IMG/VR virus record: IMGVR_UViG_3300031521_000289
Span: 1-28,709 of that record
Length of the DNA stretch: 28,709 nt
Direction: 5' to 3' (one strand)
DNA from: a virus
Shown here: positions 1-27,264 of the stretch, piece by piece
Layout of the letters: every line of letters begins with the position of its first letter
Numbering within the stretch: position 1 is the first letter of the stretch
The notes under the pieces: model-generated
What the model was told of the DNA's origin: nothing
The model's input: the letters and a program-made list of their open reading frames with translations, nothing else
Database searches by the model: none
Program-made: the position numbers and the translations under genes

Positions 1-43
1 TATTATTATTCTCTTTTTTTTGTTTTTTTAAATTTGTTTTCAT
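1..43 (-). CDS. N-terminal fragment of a gene running off the left edge
   Basis: An ATG at 43 opens a frame MKTNLKKQKKENNN that is still open at the window edge. The 5' side (ACAAAAATATG) resembles the A-rich leaders of neighbouring genes. Lys/Asn-rich, too short to identify. It would follow the RadA-like gene in the same orientation; the 65 nt between them contain a hairpin. Could be chance in such AT-rich DNA. Confidence 0.4.
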   Translation of the reverse strand, partial: MKTNLKKQKKENNN

Positions 44-63
44 ATTTTTGTCTCTTATTTATG

Positions 64-87
64 AAGAATTGCTGAAGCACAATTCTT
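64..87. terminator. Small hairpin after the RadA-like gene
   Basis: AAGAATTG at 64-71 is the exact reverse complement of CAATTCTT at 80-87, with an 8-nt loop. It lies 22 nt beyond the stop of the RadA-like gene on the minus strand. No clear U-tract follows it, so it may be a weak terminator, an mRNA-end stabiliser or a coincidence. Confidence 0.35.
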
Positions 88-108
88 ATCCATAAATATT
101 AAACAAAT

Positions 109-984
109 TTAATTTACCAAACCCAAATTTTTATGTACGACATCAATAAATGTTTTTAACATATCAATATTACTTAAAGTATCATCAATTTGATTTACTT
201 CTTTACTTATTTTTGCACGAAGTTTTTTATCAGGGAGAGCATTAACATATTCCACAATTGAATCAATTGTATGTTGAACCATTGTTTTGTTGTCTGATGT
301 TTTTTCTTCTTTTGATGCAAATGTAATTCCATTATCATTTATTTCATAGTATAACATTCCAAGTGGTCCTTTTCTGTTTTTTTGACCCCATGCAATTGTT
401 CTTATATTTTCTTTTTTATGATGAACCATCTCAAGGTGAGCATCAAACATTTGCATAATTGTATTTGCTCCACGAAATTCTCCATCTTTTGTGTTATGAC
501 CAACCATAATAAGAATTGCATTGTTATCTTCAATCCATCTTCTTAATTTTTGAATTATCATGAAATGGGTTTCATCTTCACTATTGTTTGGGTAATCTTC
601 TTTGGCAATAACTTGAAGAGAATCTACTATTATTATTGTTGGTTTAACTTCGTCTAATTCAATTAAAAAATCTTCAAATTTTGGGCAACTTTTGTTGTCA
701 CAAATATAAGCATTTTTATGATTAATATTTAGAGTTTTTGTTTGATCTTTTACAGAAGATGCAGACATTTCTCTTGAATATAAAATAGTTTTATATTTAT
801 TTAATACCTTCTGAAGATTTACAGCAAATGTGGTTTTACCTGCTCCAGATGTTCCAGTAAGAAATATTGCTGTTTTATAAACAAGTCCACCATTTCTTGA
901 CCAAAAATTATCAACTAATTCATTTCCTGTTTTAATTGAACTTTCTACCTCTATTTCTATCTCGCTATAATTTTTGCTTTTCAT
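109..984 (-). CDS. RadA/Sms-like RecA-fold ATPase
   Basis: A 291-aa RecA-fold ATPase. Seen: Walker A GTSGAGKT at residues 44-51, a Walker B strand TIIIVDS ending near D121, GHNTKDGEFRG at 162-172 (RadA proteins have a similar GHVTKxG), and QKNRKGP at 201-207, which matches the position of the RadA KNRFG motif but lacks the Phe. The N-terminal C4 zinc finger and the C-terminal Lon-like domain of bacterial RadA are absent, so this is the motor core only, as in phage recombination or replication ATPases. A role in branch migration, replication or recombination is inferred from the fold. It starts at an ATG 18 nt downstream of a phage-type promoter motif and appears to head its own unit. A DnaB-type helicase core is the alternative. 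Confidence 0.75.
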   Translation of the reverse strand: MKSKNYSEIEIEVESSIKTGNELVDNFWSRNGGLVYKTAIFLTGTSGAGKTTFAVNLQKVLNKYKTILYSREMSASSVKDQTKTLNINHKNAYICDNKSCPKFEDFLIELDEVKPTIIIVDSLQVIAKEDYPNNSEDETHFMIIQKLRRWIEDNNAILIMVGHNTKDGEFRGANTIMQMFDAHLEMVHHKKENIRTIAWGQKNRKGPLGMLYYEINDNGITFASKEEKTSDNKTMVQHTIDSIVEYVNALPDKKLRAKISKEVNQIDDTLSNIDMLKTFIDVVHKNLGLVN

Positions 985-1919: not shown

Positions 1920-2126
1920 TTAAGGAATTAAGCTATAATTATATAAAATTTCAATTTTACTCATTTTATTCCATTTTTCTTTGGGATTATATTGTTTTAA
2001 AATTTTTATGCAATCATCAATTTGTTTTTGATTAACTTGTTCCAACTCAAATTGTAATTCTTCATAAAATTTTGTAAATTTACCATTGAAGGTAAATTTT
2101 TCTTCAAAAATTTCAGATAGTTCCAT
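1920..2126 (-). CDS. Small hypothetical protein, 68 aa
   Basis: Not recognised. Acidic, apparently helical (MELSEIFEEKFTFNGKFTKFYEELQFELEQ). Its stop is 2 nt from the ATG of the Nudix gene, which suggests co-translation. No cysteine motif, signal or membrane segment. Confidence 0.7.
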   Translation of the reverse strand: MELSEIFEEKFTFNGKFTKFYEELQFELEQVNQKQIDDCIKILKQYNPKEKWNKMSKIEILYNYSLIP

Positions 2127-2131
2127 AATTT

Positions 2132-2302
2132 TTAAGAATCAATATAATCAATTAAACAAAAGAAAACAGCTAATTCAAAACAAAAAACAGAAAATGTATT
2201 CCAATGAGTGGTTGATAAATTCCAATTACATATTGAAAGTACTGTATAAATAAAAAGTAATATAATAAAATACTTTAAAAATTGTTTTAATAAATCTATC
2301 AT
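2132..2302 (-). CDS. Small two-helix membrane protein, 56 aa
   Basis: Start set at the ATG at 2302 (MIDLLKQFLKYFIILL), which is preceded by the local leader TAAAAATAAACAAT; the longer frame back to 2332 would overlap the upstream gene by 19 nt. Two hydrophobic stretches (YFIILLFIYTVLSIC and VFCFELAVFFCLI) separated by a short polar loop predict a hairpin inner-membrane protein. Function unknown. Confidence 0.65.
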   Translation of the reverse strand: MIDLLKQFLKYFIILLFIYTVLSICNWNLSTTHWNTFSVFCFELAVFFCLIDYIDS

Positions 2303-2313
2303 ATTGTTTATTT

Positions 2314-2499
2314 TTAATAGGTTGGTGAACATTTTTTGCAGTTACAGCTTATATAATGGAAACATGTTGTTCCATTTTTCTTTTTGCCTGTTCCAAGACA
2401 TTCTATGCATAAATCGTGGAGACATGTTTTTGAATTTTGATTATTTGAAATACTACTCAAATGTTCTTGTTGTCTTTCTTGTAAGTTTGAATTATTCAT
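2314..2499 (-). CDS. Small Cys-rich protein with a DnaJ-type zinc motif
   Basis: A 61-aa protein: Gln/Asn/Ser-rich first half, then CLHDLCIECLGTGKK, a single CxxCxGxG repeat as in the DnaJ central domain, with further paired cysteines (CNCKKC) near the end. This should bind one zinc ion. DnaJ itself has four repeats and a J domain, so this is not a chaperone. A secreted protein at 12125-12706 carries the same kind of repeat. It precedes the small membrane protein by 11 nt. Confidence 0.7.
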   Translation of the reverse strand: MNNSNLQERQQEHLSSISNNQNSKTCLHDLCIECLGTGKKKNGTTCFHYISCNCKKCSPTY

Positions 2500-2530
2500 T
2501 TTTATAAATTTTTATTATGTTATCGTCAAT

Positions 2531-2656
2531 TCATTTATCACTCCAAACTCTAATTTCATTATTATATCTACCTTGAACAGAATCTAAGTGAAATGCTTTT
2601 GTTATTATTATAACTTCTTCAAATGTAAATGTTTTTTCTTTATTTTTTGTTTTCAT
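2531..2656 (-). CDS. 41-aa hypothetical protein
   Basis: ATG at 2656, stop TGA at 2531. The product runs MKTKNKEKTFTFEEV to RVWSDK. It overlaps the end of the 75-aa upstream gene by 17 nt in another frame, so translation may be coupled. The protein-like composition (Glu, Trp, Arg in an AT-rich context) and the way it fills an otherwise empty gap support it, but no family is recognised. Confidence 0.5.
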   Translation of the reverse strand: MKTKNKEKTFTFEEVIIITKAFHLDSVQGRYNNEIRVWSDK

Positions 2657-2867
2657 AAATTATCATATCTGTTAATATTATTCCTTTGTTATTAACTCCT
2701 GTACAAGTTATGTATGGAGATCCATCTTCGTAAAATTTGAGTTTTTCATCCTCTATTTTACAAAAATGAACAATATCATCAACTTGTTTATATATTGCAA
2801 ATAATCCGTCATTCCAATCAAAAGATTTTTCTGTAGATCTAAAAACAACAACTTTATATTTTTTCAT
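2640..2867 (-). CDS. Small hypothetical protein, 75 aa
   Basis: Not recognised. Alternating hydrophobic pattern (YKVVVFRST, FAIYKQVDDIVHFCKI, KFYEDGSPYITCTG) suggests an all-beta fold. No signal peptide. It sits in a chain of small genes 4-20 nt apart within the 4013 unit. Confidence 0.7.
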   Translation of the reverse strand: MKKYKVVVFRSTEKSFDWNDGLFAIYKQVDDIVHFCKIEDEKLKFYEDGSPYITCTGVNNKGIILTDMIIYENKK

Positions 2868-2873
2868 AAATAA

Positions 2874-3014
2874 TTATTTTATAAATTTAATATCTTGAGG
2901 CCACAGCCACCAAACTTTATTTTGTTCATCTTTGAAATATATTCTACCATCAACAACATCAAATATTTCAGTTTTTAAATCATTTAAAGCTATTATTTTA
3001 TCACCTATTTTCAT
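2874..3014 (-). CDS. 46-aa hypothetical protein, SH3/KOW-like
   Basis: ATG at 3014, stop TAA at 2874: MKIGDKIIALNDLK to WLWPQDIKFIK. The opening 'xxGDKxxxLN' closely resembles the start of the next gene upstream (MEVGDKVRLRN), so the two may share a small SH3-like barrel. A WWLWP cluster lies near the end. It fills the gap between two well-supported genes, 1 nt from its neighbour. Confidence 0.6.
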   Translation of the reverse strand: MKIGDKIIALNDLKTEIFDVVDGRIYFKDEQNKVWWLWPQDIKFIK

Positions 3015-3015
3015 G

Positions 3016-3423
3016 TTACCATTGTTTTAATATTTGATCAAATGAACAAAATGCCGGAATTTTGGTAAAATCATCTTTTCTATACCCCTCTATTCTACCT
3101 AATAAACATGGATATTCTGAAACTACCTTATTTTCACCAATATTATATTTTATAAATTGATTATTAAATATAATTGCAGAATAATATATTTTGTTATTTA
3201 ATCGTTTGTTAAACTCATTATCATTAATAACCTCAAAAATCGAGTCATTTCTGTTTCTTATGCTTAAAATTCTTGGTTTTATAACATTTTTATAAAAATA
3301 AATTTCACATATTGTAAGTTCTTCAGAAACATTAGTTATTATGCCTAACTCATTTTCCATACATATGAATCTATCTCTTGATATATAACTATTTCTTAAC
3401 CTTACTTTATCTCCTACTTCCAT
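3016..3423 (-). CDS. Hypothetical protein with SH3-like start, 135 aa
   Basis: Residues 1-35 (MEVGDKVRLRNSY to ENELGIITNV) have the pattern of a small SH3-like/KOW beta-barrel, a fold common in phage accessory proteins and RNA- or protein-binding domains. The remainder is beta-rich with no catalytic motif visible. Stop and start are 1 nt and 2 nt from the adjoining genes. Function not assigned. Confidence 0.7.
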   Translation of the reverse strand: MEVGDKVRLRNSYISRDRFICMENELGIITNVSEELTICEIYFYKNVIKPRILSIRNRNDSIFEVINDNEFNKRLNNKIYYSAIIFNNQFIKYNIGENKVVSEYPCLLGRIEGYRKDDFTKIPAFCSFDQILKQW

Positions 3424-6436: not shown

Positions 6437-7729
6437 TTATATAAATGATAATTTTCCGTCTTTATGTCGGATTTTGTTCACGACTGGAATCACTGCAAAT
6501 TCCTCTATCTCCTCAGCTTTAAAGGCATTGGGGACTACTTTTCGAATAATATTATAACTACCGTTGACATCAGCGTGGATTTTGGTTGGTTTACCGAGGA
6601 TTTTGTACCAGCTTCTACTTTCACGATACCCACCAAATTGGTGGTGTGAGTTATCGTTTTTGTTGAAAGTTGGTATTGGGTCCAGATCCAAGAAAGATGC
6701 TTTGGATGTATAAGATTCTTCATTTGTTAAGGCCAATCTTCCCTTAATTTCCAGTTTATAGGATATTTTATCAAAGAGTTTAGTAAATGGGATTGATTGA
6801 GAATTTTGATTATTTTTCGATCCCATTTCTTTGTTTTGTTTCCAGAAATCGTTTTTGCCAAGGATAATTATATTGATGTCATTTTCCTCCAATTGGTCAA
6901 CGACCAAATTGGCTGCTTTGGTAAAATAATCATCAATTTTATTATTCCTTTTCATTGTGAGTTTCTGAATTTTATTTGATGTATATACTCCTTTTGGTAA
7001 CTGACTTTGGTACTCAGCCATTTTTTTGTTGTAATATTGATTAACGCTCTTAACTGGTCTTCCATTAATGATTTTGGGAGTAAACTCCTTAACATTTGAG
7101 GTTAAAGTCAGTAGATTGTTAACACCTGGGTCTGCACCCATATATTTTTTATTATCTTTTTTTGGTTCCTCTATTTCTTTTTTATATATTGTTTCTATTT
7201 GGTAACACCCAGTTTGCACGGATATTTCAACACAAACAAGTTTGCAATCTGTATGCAGATATGGAATTGATATATTTGTTTTTGATAATTTTATAACTCC
7301 TTTTTTTAATCCTGTTGTTGAAATTGATCCAAGTTCGTAGTTAAGTCCGTTTCTTCCTATTTTTGTGTTTTTATATTTTGGAAGACTTGGTATTCCCGTA
7401 TATTTTTGTGGATGTATTTTCCAGTCTTTTATGGATACGAAAAAACTTTTCCAGTTTTTATCCAATCCTATTAATACCTGATTTGATATTTTTCTTGGTA
7501 ATGCTTTGTAATTTTCATCTTTGATCAGCATCTTTCTTATATCATGATAATTAAGGTATATGGCGTGATCAACCATACCTTTTTCTTTTAATTCAGATGT
7601 ATGTATGAAAACCTGACGGATAATGAAATTTGCCCTGTTATATAATTTTTTTGATTTCCAACATAATTCATCAATTTCTTTATAAAATTCATGATTTGTA
7701 TCTATCCTATGTTTCTCAATCAAATACAT
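6437..7729 (-). CDS. tnpB: IS1341-like TnpB with rearranged RuvC site
   Basis: A 430-aa TnpB/OrfB-family protein, the RNA-guided nuclease family of IS200/IS605 elements. RuvC-I is GADPGVNN (D200). At the usual RuvC-II position the sequence is IIILGKNDFWKQ, with G291 where canonical TnpB has Glu; a Glu pair lies further on in TNEESYTSKASFLD (E337/E338), and RuvC-III is HADVNGSYNI (D387). There is no CxxC zinc finger. This arrangement is typical of the IS891/IS1136/IS1341-like branch, in which the catalytic Glu is thought to have moved. No tnpA is nearby. The stop codon abuts the DNA-ligase fragment. Base composition is less extreme than in the neighbouring genes. Confidence 0.85.
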   Translation of the reverse strand: MYLIEKHRIDTNHEFYKEIDELCWKSKKLYNRANFIIRQVFIHTSELKEKGMVDHAIYLNYHDIRKMLIKDENYKALPRKISNQVLIGLDKNWKSFFVSIKDWKIHPQKYTGIPSLPKYKNTKIGRNGLNYELGSISTTGLKKGVIKLSKTNISIPYLHTDCKLVCVEISVQTGCYQIETIYKKEIEEPKKDNKKYMGADPGVNNLLTLTSNVKEFTPKIINGRPVKSVNQYYNKKMAEYQSQLPKGVYTSNKIQKLTMKRNNKIDDYFTKAANLVVDQLEENDINIIILGKNDFWKQNKEMGSKNNQNSQSIPFTKLFDKISYKLEIKGRLALTNEESYTSKASFLDLDPIPTFNKNDNSHHQFGGYRESRSWYKILGKPTKIHADVNGSYNIIRKVVPNAFKAEEIEEFAVIPVVNKIRHKDGKLSFI

Positions 7730-13764: not shown

Positions 13765-14961
13765 CTACCCACCCACGCCAAAGGCGATTGGATGGGCTTC
13801 GGGTTTCATAGAGTGTGCTTTGTTGCCAAAGTCTGATTTACTCTCCACCTTTGTAATCGCCAGTTCCTGACGATATATTTTTAATCCTTCTTTTAGAATG
13901 TTCTTTGCAGCATTAAGGTCACGGTCTAATATATGTCCATTTTTGCAAGTCCATTCTCTTATTGAAAGATTTAAGTCTTGATTTATCCAACCACATTCAC
14001 AACAGGTTTTACTTGAAGGATACCAGCGATTGATTTTAATAATTTGTTTATCATTCCAATCTGCTTTATATTCCAACAATCTTACGAAAGTCCCCCAACT
14101 GGCATCTGATATATGTTTTGCAAGTTTATGGTTTTTAACCATTCCTTTCACATTCAAGTCTTCTAATGCGATTATATCATAATTAGACACTAATTGGTGG
14201 GATACTTTATGTAAGTTATCCATTCGTGAGTTGGTTATCTTCTCGTGAATTAAGGCTGTTTTCCGTCTTTGTTTTTCAAACGAATTACTACCTTTTATTT
14301 TACGAGAAAGATGTTTTTGTGCTTTCGCTAACTTTCTTTCATATCGCTTTGTGTATTTGTTATTTTTGAATTTAACTCCATCAGATGTTATTGCAAAGTC
14401 TTTTAATCCTAAGTCAATTCCACATACAGCACCTGTCTTTTCTTTTGGTTGATATTGTTCTTCTGAAAGTATAGATACGAAATATTTGCCTGTTGGTGTT
14501 TTGCTTAAAGTACATTTCCCAATTTCGCCCTTTACTTCACGGTGAACATTAACTTTAATTCCTTCCTTAAACTTTGGTGCGTAAAATCTATCTCCTTCCA
14601 GTTTTGCAAATTGGGGAACAGTAAACGTATTCTTCTTTTTTCTTGACTTAAATCTTGGAAACTTAGCGTTACCACGAAAAAAATTTACATAAGCAGTATC
14701 TAAGCATCTTAAAGCAAACTGCAATGATTGGCTATTAACTTCTTTAAGCCAAACAGTTTCATCTTTTTTCTTTAATTCTGTTAAAGTTGCTGCTTGTGCA
14801 TAGTAATTATCTGACTTTTTATCTGCTTGATACTGTTCTTTACGCTCATTCAGAAAATGATTATAGACAAATCGGATACATCCAAAATGCTTATCCAACA
14901 GCGTTTTCTGCTCTTGGTTTGGCATTAATTCAAATTGGTATGTCCGAAATATCGTTTTCAT
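13765..14961 (-). CDS. tnpB: TnpB RNA-guided endonuclease
   Basis: 398 aa, full length for IS605 TnpB. N-terminal TYQFELMPNQEQKTLLDKHFGCIRFVYNHF is the conserved OrfB start. RuvC motifs are all present: GIDLGLKDF (D183), IIALEDLN (E267) and DRDLNAAKN (D348). The zinc-ribbon region has C-x2-C (around 320-323) and CKNGH (C339, H343), i.e. a Cys/His variant of the usual four-Cys finger. Known function: cuts DNA next to a transposon-specific motif, guided by an omega-RNA from the element's right end. The stop codon lies inside the RE hairpin, so mRNA and omega-RNA overlap. The protein should be active even though TnpA is not. Confidence 0.93.
   Translation of the reverse strand: MKTIFRTYQFELMPNQEQKTLLDKHFGCIRFVYNHFLNERKEQYQADKKSDNYYAQAATLTELKKKDETVWLKEVNSQSLQFALRCLDTAYVNFFRGNAKFPRFKSRKKKNTFTVPQFAKLEGDRFYAPKFKEGIKVNVHREVKGEIGKCTLSKTPTGKYFVSILSEEQYQPKEKTGAVCGIDLGLKDFAITSDGVKFKNNKYTKRYERKLAKAQKHLSRKIKGSNSFEKQRRKTALIHEKITNSRMDNLHKVSHQLVSNYDIIALEDLNVKGMVKNHKLAKHISDASWGTFVRLLEYKADWNDKQIIKINRWYPSSKTCCECGWINQDLNLSIREWTCKNGHILDRDLNAAKNILKEGLKIYRQELAITKVESKSDFGNKAHSMKPEAHPIAFGVGG
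13768..13796 (-). ncRNA. RE hairpin and probable 3' part of the omega-RNA scaffold
   Basis: Reverse strand: GCCCATCC…GGGTGGG outer stem of 8 pairs, a 2-nt bulge, then CGCC-TTT-GGCG. This imperfect hairpin is the kind TnpA recognises at the right end and the kind that ends the omega-RNA. The RNA would run on through GTAGTTCAC, and its guide would start at 13759 with AATGGTAAAATAATAAAC. The 5' end of the RNA is not determinable here. Confidence 0.65.
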
Positions 14962-15617: not shown

Positions 15618-16922
15618 TTATTTTTTAGAATCATATTCGAAATTAAGAATTTTAACACTTAAATTGTTAGAAAATTTGCTTCTTACCACAATGCCCTCAA
15701 TTATTTGTCCTGTTTTTTCTTTAATTTCTTTAAAAATTTCATTACATTTTTTTATTAAATCATCATAAGAATATATACCTTCAAATATAGGTTCAGTATA
15801 TTCTAAACCTAATTCTTCTGAAACTTTTTTAAGGTTATGTTCTTGACCATAATGAATTCTTTTAGCACATCCCGATTTCAAATCATCAACTCCAAAAAAA
15901 ATAACTTTAGAATCTCCTTTGGCATCTTGGTTTAAATTCTTTCCACTTCCTTTGCTGCCACCAGAACCTCCTACAAGTTCTCCACGTAAAGCCAATTCTA
16001 CATTATATTTCAAACAATATGTTTCTAATTTATCAAGATAACCATGTTTTTTAGTAGTATCCACAAAAGCATCTCTCACCTCAGTTGTTATTTCTTTTAA
16101 ATTTAAATCAACAACATCTTGATTAGTGTAAAATTTTTGTTTAAAATCATTATACCATCCTTTTTGATTTGTAGCCCTATCAAAATATTGATGTAATATA
16201 TTATTATCTAAGTCAATATAACTAGAAACATAGGTCTGTTCAATTTTCTTTTTTTGATTTCTTGAACATATACCCTTTTCAAATTCATTAATATTAATAG
16301 AATCTTTACGAAAATATTCCGTAATAGATGAACCATCTCTTTTAATAGAACCTGAAATAATTTCATTATCTTCAAAACACCTATCAATATTTGATTTTTT
16401 TAACTGTGCAAGAGGTTCATCTGTTTTATATAAAAAACTTGGAATATCACCATCTGATAATCCTGAACCACCGCTTTCAAAAGAATCTTCTGCCACATAT
16501 TTAATAACTTCTAATTTCACCCGTAAATCAATATCAGAAAAATCATTGGTTTTTAAATATTCTTTTAAAATAGTTAATGGAATAATAATTCCATTTGAAT
16601 ATATTGGTTCAGTACTATTTAACATACTGAAGTTGAACTTTATACTTCTAATTCTCCCCTTTTTACCTAATTTATTTTTAGAAATATCTCCATTTGGTTC
16701 ATGATATTCTCTAAATATCAATGAGTTAGGAATACAAAAATCTGGCATTATATATAAAACATTATCTCCAATTTTATATAATCCTTTGCCTACAACAATA
16801 TCAAATTCACATGAATTCCCATCCGAATCACAAATGTGTGCAACTTGAATATTTAATGCTTCTTCACCATTTTTATAAATGGGAATTAATTTTTCAATTT
16901 TTACAATATCTACAGGTTTCAT
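15618..16922 (-). CDS. RNA ligase of the DRB0094/Rnl5 type
   Basis: 434 aa. Ligase motifs: I KRDG (nucleophile K194), III ALRGELVG (312-318), IV IIEGIVVRS (408-415) and V SVKILNFEY (K424). The first ~120 residues form the OB-like N-terminal domain typical of the Deinococcus DRB0094 family (IVKIEKLIPIYKNGEEALNIQVAHI, VVGKGLYKIGDNVLYIMPDF). Such enzymes seal 3'-OH/5'-phosphate nicks in RNA through an enzyme-AMP intermediate. An insertion around 205-270 and a Gly/Ser loop (VGGSGGSKGSGKN) are present. In phages, RNA ligases undo host tRNA cleavage. Intact; last gene of its unit before the next promoter. Confidence 0.88.
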   Translation of the reverse strand: MKPVDIVKIEKLIPIYKNGEEALNIQVAHICDSDGNSCEFDIVVGKGLYKIGDNVLYIMPDFCIPNSLIFREYHEPNGDISKNKLGKKGRIRSIKFNFSMLNSTEPIYSNGIIIPLTILKEYLKTNDFSDIDLRVKLEVIKYVAEDSFESGGSGLSDGDIPSFLYKTDEPLAQLKKSNIDRCFEDNEIISGSIKRDGSSITEYFRKDSININEFEKGICSRNQKKKIEQTYVSSYIDLDNNILHQYFDRATNQKGWYNDFKQKFYTNQDVVDLNLKEITTEVRDAFVDTTKKHGYLDKLETYCLKYNVELALRGELVGGSGGSKGSGKNLNQDAKGDSKVIFFGVDDLKSGCAKRIHYGQEHNLKKVSEELGLEYTEPIFEGIYSYDDLIKKCNEIFKEIKEKTGQIIEGIVVRSKFSNNLSVKILNFEYDSKK

Positions 16923-20653: not shown

Positions 20654-21505
20654 TTAAATTAAATTACCAAAAACTTCTCTTATATCATCAACTTCAAATC
20701 CAGCAGCTTTTTTGTGGCCACCTCCTCCCATTCTGATAGCAAGTTCTGAACAATCAACATTATCTTTTGTTGTATAAAGTGAAAAGTTCCATTTTTTACC
20801 ATTAAATTGAAATGGAATCATAATATCATGTTTTTCTTCTTTAAAAACACTTTTAAAAACATCTGAATTGAAACCTCCACCATTTAAACATATTGCTTTA
20901 AAACCACAGAAATCAAATTCAAAAGAAGATTTTTTACATTGTATTTCATTTATTTGATTTTGATATTTTAATATAATTTTGCCTTCGTTAATAATGGAAT
21001 AAACTAGATTTATATCTGTAAAAACTTCAACAGGAAAATTTTCTGGGCCATTACAGTATAATTTCATGCCAAATTGAAATGGTAAAACCATATTCTCCCA
21101 ATTATAAATATCTTGATTCCTCCATGTATCGTATTCCCCCAATAATTTTACAGCTAAAGGCATTTCTATTTTTGGGAATAAATAATTCCATGTTAGTTCA
21201 CATGCTGAAATTCCATTTTTTAATATTGCATTACAAAAATTCTTATGTTCAAAATTTTCATATTTATTAATTGCAGAGATGTGATGGTCAATCCATGTTA
21301 ATTGATTATTTGAGCTTTTACTTATTTCAAACATTTTTTCCATTGGAAATGAAACATCTGCCATAATTATTGGTTCGTTTTTTATTTTTAATTTTATTTT
21401 ATCTCCGTAATCATATCCTATTAATATGGCTTCTGGATATTTTTTCTTAATTATGGCTCCACTTGTGAAACCGTCCAAATCTTTGCTATGGTAAATTGCT
21501 AACAT
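20654..21505 (-). CDS. DHH-family phosphoesterase
   Basis: 283 aa. Metal-binding motifs: HSKDLDG at 6-12, MADVS (D50), WIDHH (D73-H74-H75), EYDTW, and the DHHA1 signature GGGGHKKAAGF near 262-272. This is the NrnB-like arrangement (a DHH domain starting almost at residue 1, then DHHA1). Such enzymes hydrolyse short oligoribonucleotides (nanoRNA), c-di-nucleotides or pAp with Mn2+. In a phage it could recycle nucleotides or remove cyclic-nucleotide signals used by CBASS-type defences; the latter is speculation. Last gene of the 24717 unit. Confidence 0.88.
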   Translation of the reverse strand: MLAIYHSKDLDGFTSGAIIKKKYPEAILIGYDYGDKIKLKIKNEPIIMADVSFPMEKMFEISKSSNNQLTWIDHHISAINKYENFEHKNFCNAILKNGISACELTWNYLFPKIEMPLAVKLLGEYDTWRNQDIYNWENMVLPFQFGMKLYCNGPENFPVEVFTDINLVYSIINEGKIILKYQNQINEIQCKKSSFEFDFCGFKAICLNGGGFNSDVFKSVFKEEKHDIMIPFQFNGKKWNFSLYTTKDNVDCSELAIRMGGGGHKKAAGFEVDDIREVFGNLI

Positions 21506-21510
21506 ATTAT

Positions 21511-21687
21511 TTATTTTAAATTATTTTTTAACTCAGCTATCTCATTTCTAATTTCTGAAATATATTTTAATCTTTTGCTTGAAAAACCATGTCTCATAGC
21601 TACTGTTTGTAAATCTTTTATCTCTTCTCCTAGCAAACCAACATATTTTTCGTAAAGCTCAATTATTTTATTTTCATTTTTATACAT
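21511..21687 (-). CDS. 58-aa helical protein
   Basis: ATG at 21687, TAA at 21511: MYKNENKIIELYEKYVGLLGEE, then TVAMRHGFSSKRLKYISEIRNEIAELKNNLK. Fully helical, with a possible short HTH-like turn (MRHGFSSKRL). Overlaps the nucleotidyltransferase gene by 8 nt and ends 5 nt before the DHH gene, filling the gap exactly. Confidence 0.65.
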   Translation of the reverse strand: MYKNENKIIELYEKYVGLLGEEIKDLQTVAMRHGFSSKRLKYISEIRNEIAELKNNLK

Positions 21688-22345
21688 AATGGAATTCTTT
21701 AATGTTATTACTGTCTAACATTTTTTGAAATAATTCGTTGTTACATTTTTGAATATAATAATTTTTAATTTCTCCTTTTTCAAACATATTGTTTATTTTG
21801 TTTCTCAATGTATATTCACTAAATATAAGATCATTTATATTTGGTTTATCATTATAAAGTTCCTTTATATGTTTAAGATTTGGCAATCTATTTTCAATTA
21901 ATTCTTTTGCACAATATAAACTTCTGTTTGCATGAAATAATTTATTTTTTTTATCTAAATGTTTTAAATCTCTTTTTGCAAAACCAATAAATGCTTTAAT
22001 TATTTTATATGTTCTACAAAGTTCTAATTTTAATTCATCTTTTACCAAATCTGTAAACATCACAATATCAACATTTATTGTAGAATCTCCAGAATGAAAA
22101 TTTTTCCAAAATTGAAGTTCTGAGCAATAAAGCCAATCTATATTATTATCAATATCTTTATGTTGAAATTGGTGATAATTTGGAAGAGATGAATATAACT
22201 CAATTTCAGGAGTTGAATATATCGAAAGAATATCTAAATCTGAATTTTCATTATTTGTTCCATATAAATGGGAACCAATTTCAAAATTTCTAAGAACAAT
22301 AGAATCAAGTTGTTCTTTTTCTTGTTTATTTATTATTATATTCAT
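21680..22345 (-). CDS. Nucleotidyltransferase-fold protein
   Basis: 221 aa. FEIGSHLYGTNNENSDLDILSIY at residues 21-43 is the polymerase-beta-type nucleotidyltransferase motif: GS (24-25), then D36-x-D38. A further carboxylate should come from NVDIVMFTDL. C-terminal half is helical (RDLKHLDKKNKLFHANRSLYCAKELI), as in the phage/bacterial 'predicted nucleotidyltransferase' group that includes MJ1435-like proteins. It transfers a nucleotide to an unknown acceptor (RNA end, protein or antibiotic-like molecule). With an RNA ligase and RlmN-like enzyme nearby, RNA-end processing is a reasonable guess only. Confidence 0.8.
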   Translation of the reverse strand: MNIIINKQEKEQLDSIVLRNFEIGSHLYGTNNENSDLDILSIYSTPEIELYSSLPNYHQFQHKDIDNNIDWLYCSELQFWKNFHSGDSTINVDIVMFTDLVKDELKLELCRTYKIIKAFIGFAKRDLKHLDKKNKLFHANRSLYCAKELIENRLPNLKHIKELYNDKPNINDLIFSEYTLRNKINNMFEKGEIKNYYIQKCNNELFQKMLDSNNIKEFHYV

Positions 22346-23329: not shown

Positions 23330-24238
23330 TTATTTATTATTATTTTTCATCCAATTCTGTACCATAAAAAGTTGACCACACCCTCCGCCAATATCATCTT
23401 GCCCAGCAGGATTAAAAACCCTTACATTATATCCAGATTCAACAAAACAATTTGATATATTATTTATTTTATCTAATTCTTTATAACCTTTATCTTTCAT
23501 GTTTTCATCATTGGAACAAATTACTGAAAAAGTGAAATTAAAAATAAGAGGAGAAAATAAATCTTTTAATCTATTCATTTCTTCTTCATTTTGATTATTT
23601 TCTCCAATGCAATAATTTATATAAACAGGTCTTTGGGTACATTGATTCCATTTAATTCCGAAATCACGCATTTCACGTAAATTAAATTTGTTCTTATATG
23701 GAATTAATTTATTGCGTTTATGTTCTAATGCCTCATGTACTGAAAACTGAAGCCCAACTTTATCAATTTCATAACTTATATCCAATAATTTTTCAAACGC
23801 TTCTTCGTTTCTTGGGCACATTGTTGAAACTAATAATTCTGCATTTTTATATAAATTGTGTAATTTTCTAATTGCATTTATTACATTATCTATATTTAAA
23901 ATTGGTTCTCCCATACTCATAAACATAATTTGAAATCTTTCTCCGGCAGAATTAACATCTTCAATATCCATATCTTTTAGGCAATATTTGACCTGATCAA
24001 TTATTTCTTCACTAGTTAAATTTCTGATAAATTTTTTACCAGTTCCACAGAATGCACAACCTACTGGACAACCTACTGGACAACCTACTGGACAACCACT
24101 TTGAACTGAAACACACAATACTGTTCTTTTGTAAAAGTTTTCATATTTGTATAAAACTGCTTCTGCAATTGCATCTGGGAATTCAAAAACATATTTCCAA
24201 ACATTTCCTTCAGAACTATCAAATCTTTTAATCAGCAT
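23330..24238 (-). CDS. RlmN-like radical SAM enzyme with expanded Cys loop
   Basis: 302 aa. RlmN/Cfr features: RTVLCVSVQSGC, the [4Fe-4S] loop ending CPVGCAFCGTG (C57-x3-C61-x2-C64), FIRNLTSEEIIDQV, MSMGEP (107-112), LQFSVHEA, and the C-terminal DDIGGGCGQL with C287 at the methyl-carrying cysteine position of RlmN. RlmN makes 2-methyladenosine in 23S rRNA A2503 and some tRNAs. The usual N-terminal accessory domain is mostly missing (about 40 residues remain). The loop holds two extra 'CPVG' units (C49 and C53), created by a 12-bp repeat. Whether it still binds the cluster correctly is unknown. Probably RNA methylation. Confidence 0.85.
   Translation of the reverse strand: MLIKRFDSSEGNVWKYVFEFPDAIAEAVLYKYENFYKRTVLCVSVQSGCPVGCPVGCPVGCAFCGTGKKFIRNLTSEEIIDQVKYCLKDMDIEDVNSAGERFQIMFMSMGEPILNIDNVINAIRKLHNLYKNAELLVSTMCPRNEEAFEKLLDISYEIDKVGLQFSVHEALEHKRNKLIPYKNKFNLREMRDFGIKWNQCTQRPVYINYCIGENNQNEEEMNRLKDLFSPLIFNFTFSVICSNDENMKDKGYKELDKINNISNCFVESGYNVRVFNPAGQDDIGGGCGQLFMVQNWMKNNNK
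24056..24096. repeat. 12-bp tandem repeat inside the radical SAM loop
   Basis: Three perfect copies of CTACTGGACAAC (24061-24072, 24073-24084, 24085-24096) plus a 5-base partial copy on the left. On the coding strand this is GGTTGTCCAGTA, encoding Gly-Cys-Pro-Val, in frame. The unmodified family has one such Cys. Confidence 0.95.
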
Positions 24239-24756: not shown

Positions 24757-25149
24757 TTAATAAATTTTAAATTCTAAAAATTGTTTATCTAATTCATTCC
24801 AATCTACCATCATTTCTTTGATTTCTGTTGTTGGCTTAAGTGGAATATTTTCAGTAATATCATCTATGAATATTTCTTGATTCCTCAACATATATTCCCA
24901 ATTCCAAGGAGTGGGAATATGTTTTTTGGGAGTTATTTTTGTAATTGGTTTGATATGTTCATTATTTAAGAAATCAATTGCAGCTTCTAATGTTCCGTTG
25001 TAACATTGAACTCTATATGTATTTAAAATTATTTCGTGGCCAGCTTCTTGTAATTTTCTAATTATTTTAAAGCAATCATGGTTATATTTACCAATTTTAG
25101 GATATAGTTCCTCAACTACAGTATTATCAAAATCTAGATATATTTTCAT
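24757..25149 (-). CDS. HAD-superfamily hydrolase
   Basis: 130 aa. Motif I LDFDNTVVE (D6 nucleophile, D8), motif II-like ILNTYR, and motif IV-like IFIDDI. The small cap-less design with 'GHEIILNTYRVQCYNGTLEAAIDFLN' resembles phage HAD phosphatases/5'-nucleotidases. Polynucleotide 3'-phosphatase or nucleotide phosphatase activity is possible, and would fit with the RNA ligase, but the substrate is not evident. Preceded by a host-type promoter and not by the phage-type motif. Confidence 0.75.
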   Translation of the reverse strand: MKIYLDFDNTVVEELYPKIGKYNHDCFKIIRKLQEAGHEIILNTYRVQCYNGTLEAAIDFLNNEHIKPITKITPKKHIPTPWNWEYMLRNQEIFIDDITENIPLKPTTEIKEMMVDWNELDKQFLEFKIY

Positions 25150-26203: not shown

Positions 26204-27264
26204 TTATAGAACGAATCTAAATTTATCTATTACTTTACTTTCTTGTATCATTCTGTGGTTACTTTTTAGGGGCGAAGCCTTGTCATCCATAACCGTGCAG
26301 TCCTCAAGCGTTAATTCGGGTGTAAGTATCCCTATTTTTACTTTGTTATTATTTTGTTTTTCTTCCTCTATAAGAAATAATTTATAAAGTCTGATTCCTT
26401 CTTTATAGATGTTGATAGCAGCATTAAGGTCACGATCAATGTTAAGACCGCAATGTTCGCACACATAAATGCGTTCATCTAGGCCCAATTTTTCTTTTTT
26501 ATGACCACAACAGCTACATAGTTTTGAACTAGGAAACCATCTACTTATTTTGATTACATTGCCACCTTTCCATTTTGCTTTATACTGAAGCATTTCAATA
26601 AATCTACCGAGACCGAGGTCTTGGATTGATTTTGCGAGGTGGTGGTTTTTCATCATTCCTTTAATGTTAAGGTCTTCTAAAATGATAACTTGGTTTTCGT
26701 TTGTCCAACCAATATGGAGGCAAAATACTTTCCTGATGTTGCTTTGGATATTGTGACTGATTTTATATTTTGCTTGTTTTTTAGCAAATAATTTTTGTCT
26801 GAATCTGAACACCTATATTTTAAATTTTTTATTTCTTTCGTCAGATTTAATTTGTTGTTTTTATCTGAAAGGCATTTTTTGCTGACAGCATCAACAGGGA
26901 ATCTTGATCTTTGCCTATCAAATTTCTTTTTAAATTTTGGAAATCCAACTTTTTCTCCTTTGCGCTTATTGGAACAAGAATCAAAGAAGTTCTTGTATGC
27001 TTGGATGAGGTCAATGATAGCTTGTTTCATCACCTTTGTATTCTGTTCAAGCATAAAACTTTTTTCTGGATTTTTTCTTATGTAATCTGTAAAATATTTA
27101 CCCAGATATTTAAGGTTAATAACATTCGTTTTTCCTTCTTTATAAGAATTAATGCAATGTGAAAGACAAGTATTATATACCAAACGATAACACCCGTGAT
27201 TCTTCGCCAATAGAATCCTCTGCCTCTCATTTGGGTAAATCCTTATCTTTTTTGCATTTAACAT
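26204..27264 (-). pseudogene. tnpB: TnpB pseudogene lacking RuvC-I
   Basis: Two frames of one OrfB/TnpB. The N-terminal part (27264 to about 26705) runs MLNAKKIRIYPNERQRILLAKN to SVTISKATSGKYFASILV; the C-terminal part (about 26703 to 26204) resumes NENQVIILEDLNIKGMM (RuvC-II Glu), a full CxxC…CxxC zinc finger (CSCCGHKKE…CEHCG) and DRDLNAAINI (RuvC-III). About 90 residues expected between them, including GIDxGIK (RuvC-I) and the bridge helix, are gone, and the join shifts frame. Nuclease-dead. The start has AGGA 9 nt upstream, a Shine-Dalgarno-like site unlike the phage genes. Confidence 0.85.

Follow-up and report, generated by a model that had tools for sequence, protein, structure and literature searches.

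The CX3CX2C cluster loop of radical SAM enzymes is a very rigid motif. The closest described systems to the phage gene analysed here are RlmN, the dual-specificity C2 methyltransferase of 23S rRNA A2503 and tRNA A37 (3rfa, 6fz6), and Cfr, the C8 methyltransferase of A2503 (9p0p). Previous work has dealt with the roles of RlmN C118 and of the transiently methylated C355 (PMC4689488), Cfr loses activity on mutation of any of the three motif cysteines (PMC4689488), and a clinical S. aureus rlmN mutation, given as a 345E insertion, inactivates RlmN (PMC5320569). An extra cysteine beside a cluster ligand is also present in the tandem-cysteine motifs of the yeast radical SAM enzyme Dph1-Dph2, although there the cysteines form an adjacent CC, are conserved in eukaryotes, have a non-canonical ligand spacing and are not part of a repeat (PMC11048331). 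In the open-access literature we found no description of a repeated CX3CX2C unit.

In this work, we have analysed the whole of the virus record IMGVR_UViG_3300031521_000289, a stretch of 28,709 bases referred to below as the window. It carries an RlmN/Cfr-like gene in which the beginning of the cluster loop is present three times:

23330..24238, minus strand: ORF of 302 aa for an RlmN/Cfr-like radical SAM protein of a short phage group, from profile and Foldseek matches
24113..24115, minus strand: C42, counterpart of RlmN C118 and Cfr C105, invariant in the group and aligned to the RlmN/Cfr family
24056..24097, minus strand: repeat array, (GCPV)x3-GC, from 3.5 exact copies of GGTTGTCCAGTA, by Tandem Repeats Finder and codon reading
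24086..24097, minus strand: unit 1, G48-V51, with C49, by its spacing probably one of the two extra units
24074..24085, minus strand: unit 2, G52-V55, with C53, by its spacing probably the other extra unit
24047..24073, minus strand: unit 3 plus GCAFC, G56-C64, with the complete canonical C57-x3-C61-x2-C64 in the native spacing of all relatives
23378..23380, minus strand: C287, counterpart of the methylated cysteine RlmN C355 / Cfr C338, invariant in the group and aligned to the RlmN/Cfr family

Tandem Repeats Finder gives the array a period of 12, 3.5 copies, 100% matches and a score of 84, the highest among the 45 tandem-repeat rows of the window. On the minus strand its codons read GGT TGT CCA GTA three times and then GGT TGT, which yields SGCPVGCPVGCPVGCAFCGTG in frame within the 302-codon ORF; the translation contains CVSVQSGCPVGCPVGCPVGCAFCGTG, with the loop cysteines spaced as C49-x3-C53-x3-C57-x3-C61-x2-C64. 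The original prediction, which had described three perfect in-frame copies of a 12-mer, is thus borne out by the repeat search, the codons and the translation, and the ORF translation places the five cysteines where it had put them; of its limits for the array, 24056-24096, the start is right and the end falls one base short of 24097. At lag 12, the longest stretch over which the sequence repeats itself exactly measures 30 bases. In 30 sequences simulated from the window with a first-order Markov model, no such match exceeded 16 at lags between 4 and 60, so the array is not a product of chance. The repeat is present in the contig, far beyond chance expectation.

The product had been predicted to be an RlmN/Cfr-like radical SAM protein, and this stands. 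It matches TIGR00048 (RlmN, NCBIfam) over residues 7-290 with an E value of 5e-31, the first Foldseek matches of its AlphaFold2 model are RlmN 6fz6 and 3rfa (E ~1e-15), and the PDB matches of the group profile are RlmN and Cfr. Radical SAM enzymes are recognised by a CX3CX2C [4Fe-4S] motif within a partial TIM barrel; the motif is intact at C57-x3-C61-x2-C64, Foldseek matches radical SAM enzymes, and the two catalytic cysteines of the RlmN/Cfr family are found at C42 and C287 when the protein is aligned to solved members. An outright RlmN label would be too strong, as TIGR00048 demands 290 bits where the match scores 108, and as the N-terminal domain is absent. The matches to NF000424 (Cfr; 86 bits against a cut-off of 530) and TIGR04432 (80 bits against 550) also fall short. 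Since a one-unit ortholog (L003) is likewise below the curated RlmN/Cfr cut-offs, the low scores are a property of the group and not of the repeat; for Pfam PF04055, the window protein lies slightly under the 29.5 cut-off (26.4 bits, E 8.9e-6) and this ortholog slightly over it (30.2 bits). The TIGR00048 alignment starts at profile position 75 of 355, the N-terminal accessory domain being absent, and the relatives are also ~300 aa long, without the ~75 N-terminal RlmN residues. With RlmN the window protein shares the fold, the radical SAM motif, the C118 and C355 counterparts and the GEP motif, but it lacks those ~75 residues, is only ~23% identical and has eight more residues in the cluster loop. 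With Cfr it has the chemistry residues and the fold in common, but it shows no sign of a resistance function and has the loop insertion. From these comparisons we classify the gene as that of a phage-borne RlmN/Cfr-like radical SAM methyltransferase of a short (~300 aa) group.

The relatives comprise 44 loci in viral contigs, with 44-76% identity over the best segment. Exactly one unit (CX3CX2C) is present in all 42 of them with a readable loop, and in all eight GenBank phage records, most of which are cultured isolates. The members of the short phage group (L003-L046, and GenBank phages such as LR756500, MT161459 and OQ632216) are full-length, ~47-78% identical to the window protein where aligned, and have the same invariant residues, but every one of them has a single GCPV-type unit. 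A loop length that is otherwise fixed, as the original prediction had held, is therefore what these 50 sequences show, and the window protein departs from it by an insertion of eight residues, that is, two units, one GCPV being normal. The further suggestion that slippage varies the copy number between phages did not survive: the comparison proposed as its check, once run, gave a number fixed at one in every relative. A contingency locus, at which slippage would vary the number of units within the phage population and so turn the activity of the enzyme up or down, is very improbable; the array is a perfect in-frame repeat of a slippable kind, but it is short at three units, a 12-bp unit never shifts the frame and no relative has another copy number.

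In the tree, the window nests within these single-unit relatives, in a starred clade of six. Because all relatives have one unit and the window lies among them, we take the expansion to be derived and private to this contig. It also appears to be recent, since the three copies are identical at all synonymous sites, in a gene whose pairwise dS against its nearest relatives exceeds 1.3 or is saturated; this identity points to a late addition, unless the copies have been homogenised. The end branch of the window is 0.22 long, compared with 0.09-0.24 for its sisters, and where dS is finite, comparison with the nearest relatives gives a dN/dS of ~0.14 or less. The protein keeps 62 of the 63 family-invariant residues, the sole loss being W291F, and 31 of the 31 nearly invariant ones. 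On these grounds the insertion would be a late addition to a gene under normal constraint. W291F lies close to the catalytic C287. A reading of the ORF as a decayed gene is excluded by its intact frame and by this constraint.

With every relative at one unit, the main technical rival, in our judgement, is an artefact: the true genome would have one or two units, and the extra ones would have arisen in assembly or library preparation, or else the assembler would have picked a minority variant. The array is indeed known from a single metagenomic contig, and our searches, in which near-identical records may have been masked, found no second contig of the same phage. However, ordinary short reads are much longer than its 42 bp and would run right across it, and the frame is kept with the ORF intact. 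We consider an artefact improbable.

Some individual relatives deserve mention. Four of them (L016, L024, L033 and L035) have an extra cysteine two residues ahead of the first ligand (CGCPVGC), so added cysteines at the edge of the loop do occur naturally. Moorella phage MTATph1 (L216) has a normal CX3CX2C and a glycine at the counterpart of RlmN C118, and the RlmN-like gene of OR529408.1 (L212) is annotated as 'prohibitin family protein', probably a misannotation. Among the relatives, the RlmN-like gene has no shared neighbours apart from two weak matches to the gene at 24760-25149. Elsewhere in the window, a TnpB-like (IS605 OrfB) gene lies in two frames at 26204-27264 (minus strand); aligned to the window's intact TnpB, it is without roughly 85 middle residues and looks like a decayed copy. 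Two further OrfB/TnpB-family genes, at 6437-7729 and 13765-14961 (both minus strand), bring the number to three in 28.7 kb. Weak matches at 15618-16922, 20654-21505 and 21680-22345 (minus strand), to an RNA ligase, a DHH phosphoesterase and RlaP (of the RNA-repair polymerase-beta family), may form an RNA-repair set. Rfam and tRNA scans of the 28,709 bases returned nothing.

How could the array have arisen? The ancestral loop, GGT-TGT-CCA-GTA-GGT-TGT, would have held a direct repeat of 6 bp, GGTTGT, 12 bp apart, and a built-in repeat with this period would probably be enough to start slippage. Replication slippage between the two GGTTGT copies would duplicate the 12-bp unit, and a second slip, or one longer slip, would give three units. 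Slippage, which the original prediction had invoked for a change in copy number, fits the identical in-frame copies.

The pair C61-x2-C64 is the sole CX2C in the loop and the sequence downstream is unchanged, which would fix the second and third ligands; the last unit retains a complete canonical motif, and C57, C61 and C64 are most probably the residues that bind the [4Fe-4S] cluster. Units 1 and 2 would then be the two extra units, an assignment made by spacing, all copies being identical, and with C49 and C53 they would loop out as a bulge of eight residues, bounded by strand beta-1 with its C42 on one side and by the first ligand on the other. AlphaFold2 predicts the same fold outside the loop with and without the insertion. 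In the model of the window protein, pLDDT is below 50 at residues 49-61, 65-68, 242-246 and 286-288; no stretch of the one-unit ortholog falls that low. A low value in the loop is expected anyway, since nothing in the alignment corresponds to the insertion; the fall at 286-288, which takes in the catalytic C287, is suggestive only.

Given a loop whose length does not otherwise vary, and a C42 that must act near the active site, a hypomorphic or inactive enzyme seems the likeliest outcome. The loss of activity in the Cfr cysteine mutants and in the S. aureus rlmN insertion mutant cited above, and the scarcity of longer loops in nature, also speak for impairment. Our best guess, held with a little better than even confidence, is that a recent slippage expansion has left the extra units as a bulge and the enzyme impaired, in a gene not yet decayed; that there are three units and not two, in an otherwise conserved gene, could on the other hand mean that the bulge is tolerated. 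We judge such tolerance to be the main biological rival to impairment: the extra units would bulge harmlessly while C57, C61 and C64 bind the cluster, the enzyme would be fully active and the insertion a neutral polymorphism. The canonical motif and all downstream residues are intact, the modelled fold does not change outside the loop, and the gene is under purifying selection with no signs of a pseudogene. Two other genes with otherwise intact frames, described below, have a similar duplication. Against this, none of the 50 relatives examined departs from the standard loop length, and duplications of this kind are seen only very rarely among genomes, which suggests selection against them. We regard a harmless bulge as unlikely, although well worth weighing, and the three-unit enzyme may possibly have retained activity.

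A gain of function is a much more distant prospect. Here the extra cysteines would offer a choice between ligand sets, bind a further metal or place the enzyme under redox control. They are retained at a regular CX3C spacing, four relatives have an extra cysteine at the loop edge, and in yeast Dph2 a radical SAM-type cluster can be supported by additional cysteines next to a ligand (PMC11048331). However, the copies are identical, with nothing to suggest that a new role has been selected for, the extra units are absent from all relatives, and the sequence can be explained otherwise, since the last unit alone keeps CX3CX2C. A functional three-unit loop, whose added cysteines alter cluster binding through alternative ligand sets or as a redox-active bulge, is for us just as doubtful.

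The search for similar duplications was extended to 84,980 species genomes and 2.9 million viral contigs, scanned for the pattern GCxxGCxxGCxFC. The genomes gave 101 matches, nearly all of them low-complexity or unrelated frames; on inspection, a frame designated L130 and other short or odd ones were set aside, and only two matches, L121 and L129, had genuine-looking radical SAM loops. Among the viral contigs there were 29 matches, none recognisably radical SAM by loop context and ORF length, and five other occurrences of GCPVGCPVGC, none in a radical SAM gene, all being other frames or repeats. The two genes are:

2054-3112, minus strand: L121, in a Thaumarchaeota (archaeal) MAG, Pfam Radical_SAM 2e-11
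2-631, minus strand: L129, in a Clostridia MAG, recognised by its loop and its viral relatives

In both, the homologous part of the cluster loop contains an exact duplication of 12 bp that keeps the frame. The loop of L121 is ECMRGCMRGCGRGCEFC, and in relatives 83% and 74% identical to it the loop is ECMRGCGRGC[ED]FC; that of L129 is GCPRGCPRGCPFC, where viral relatives have GCPRGCxFC, GCPRNCxFC or GCPNRCxFC. L129 has no Pfam or NCBIfam match, and we call it radical SAM-like from its loop and these relatives. The two genes belong to subfamilies unrelated to the window gene and have one extra unit, not two, and their relatives too are single-unit. The earlier statement that no radical SAM enzyme with such a repeat was known therefore nearly holds, failing for these one-unit duplications. 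Single-unit GCxxGCxFC occurs about twice per genome (206 matches in a 101-genome sample of one phylum), from which we roughly extrapolate, if that sample holds elsewhere and with a pattern blind to other ways of coding the motif, that duplications would affect about 1 in 10^4-10^5 loops. The 12-bp loop duplication would thus be recurrent but very rare, which is consistent with slippage at the built-in GGN-TGY direct repeat and with selection against its products.

The repeat is a correct and unusual observation whose cause is most likely ordinary, and what adds most interest is that such a duplication recurs in two other radical SAM-type genes. The mutational route is simple, as GC-x-x-GC motifs can hold a built-in 12-bp direct repeat, and the two extra C-x3 steps of the window gene, with the two independent one-unit cases, make up a natural series for testing how far the cluster loop can be lengthened. 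Should the enzyme simply be broken, an accessory phage gene would have been caught early in its loss. If the three-unit loop is functional, this would be a radical SAM enzyme whose cofactor loop can expand, and together with L121 and L129 it would show loop evolution by recurrent 12-bp duplication.
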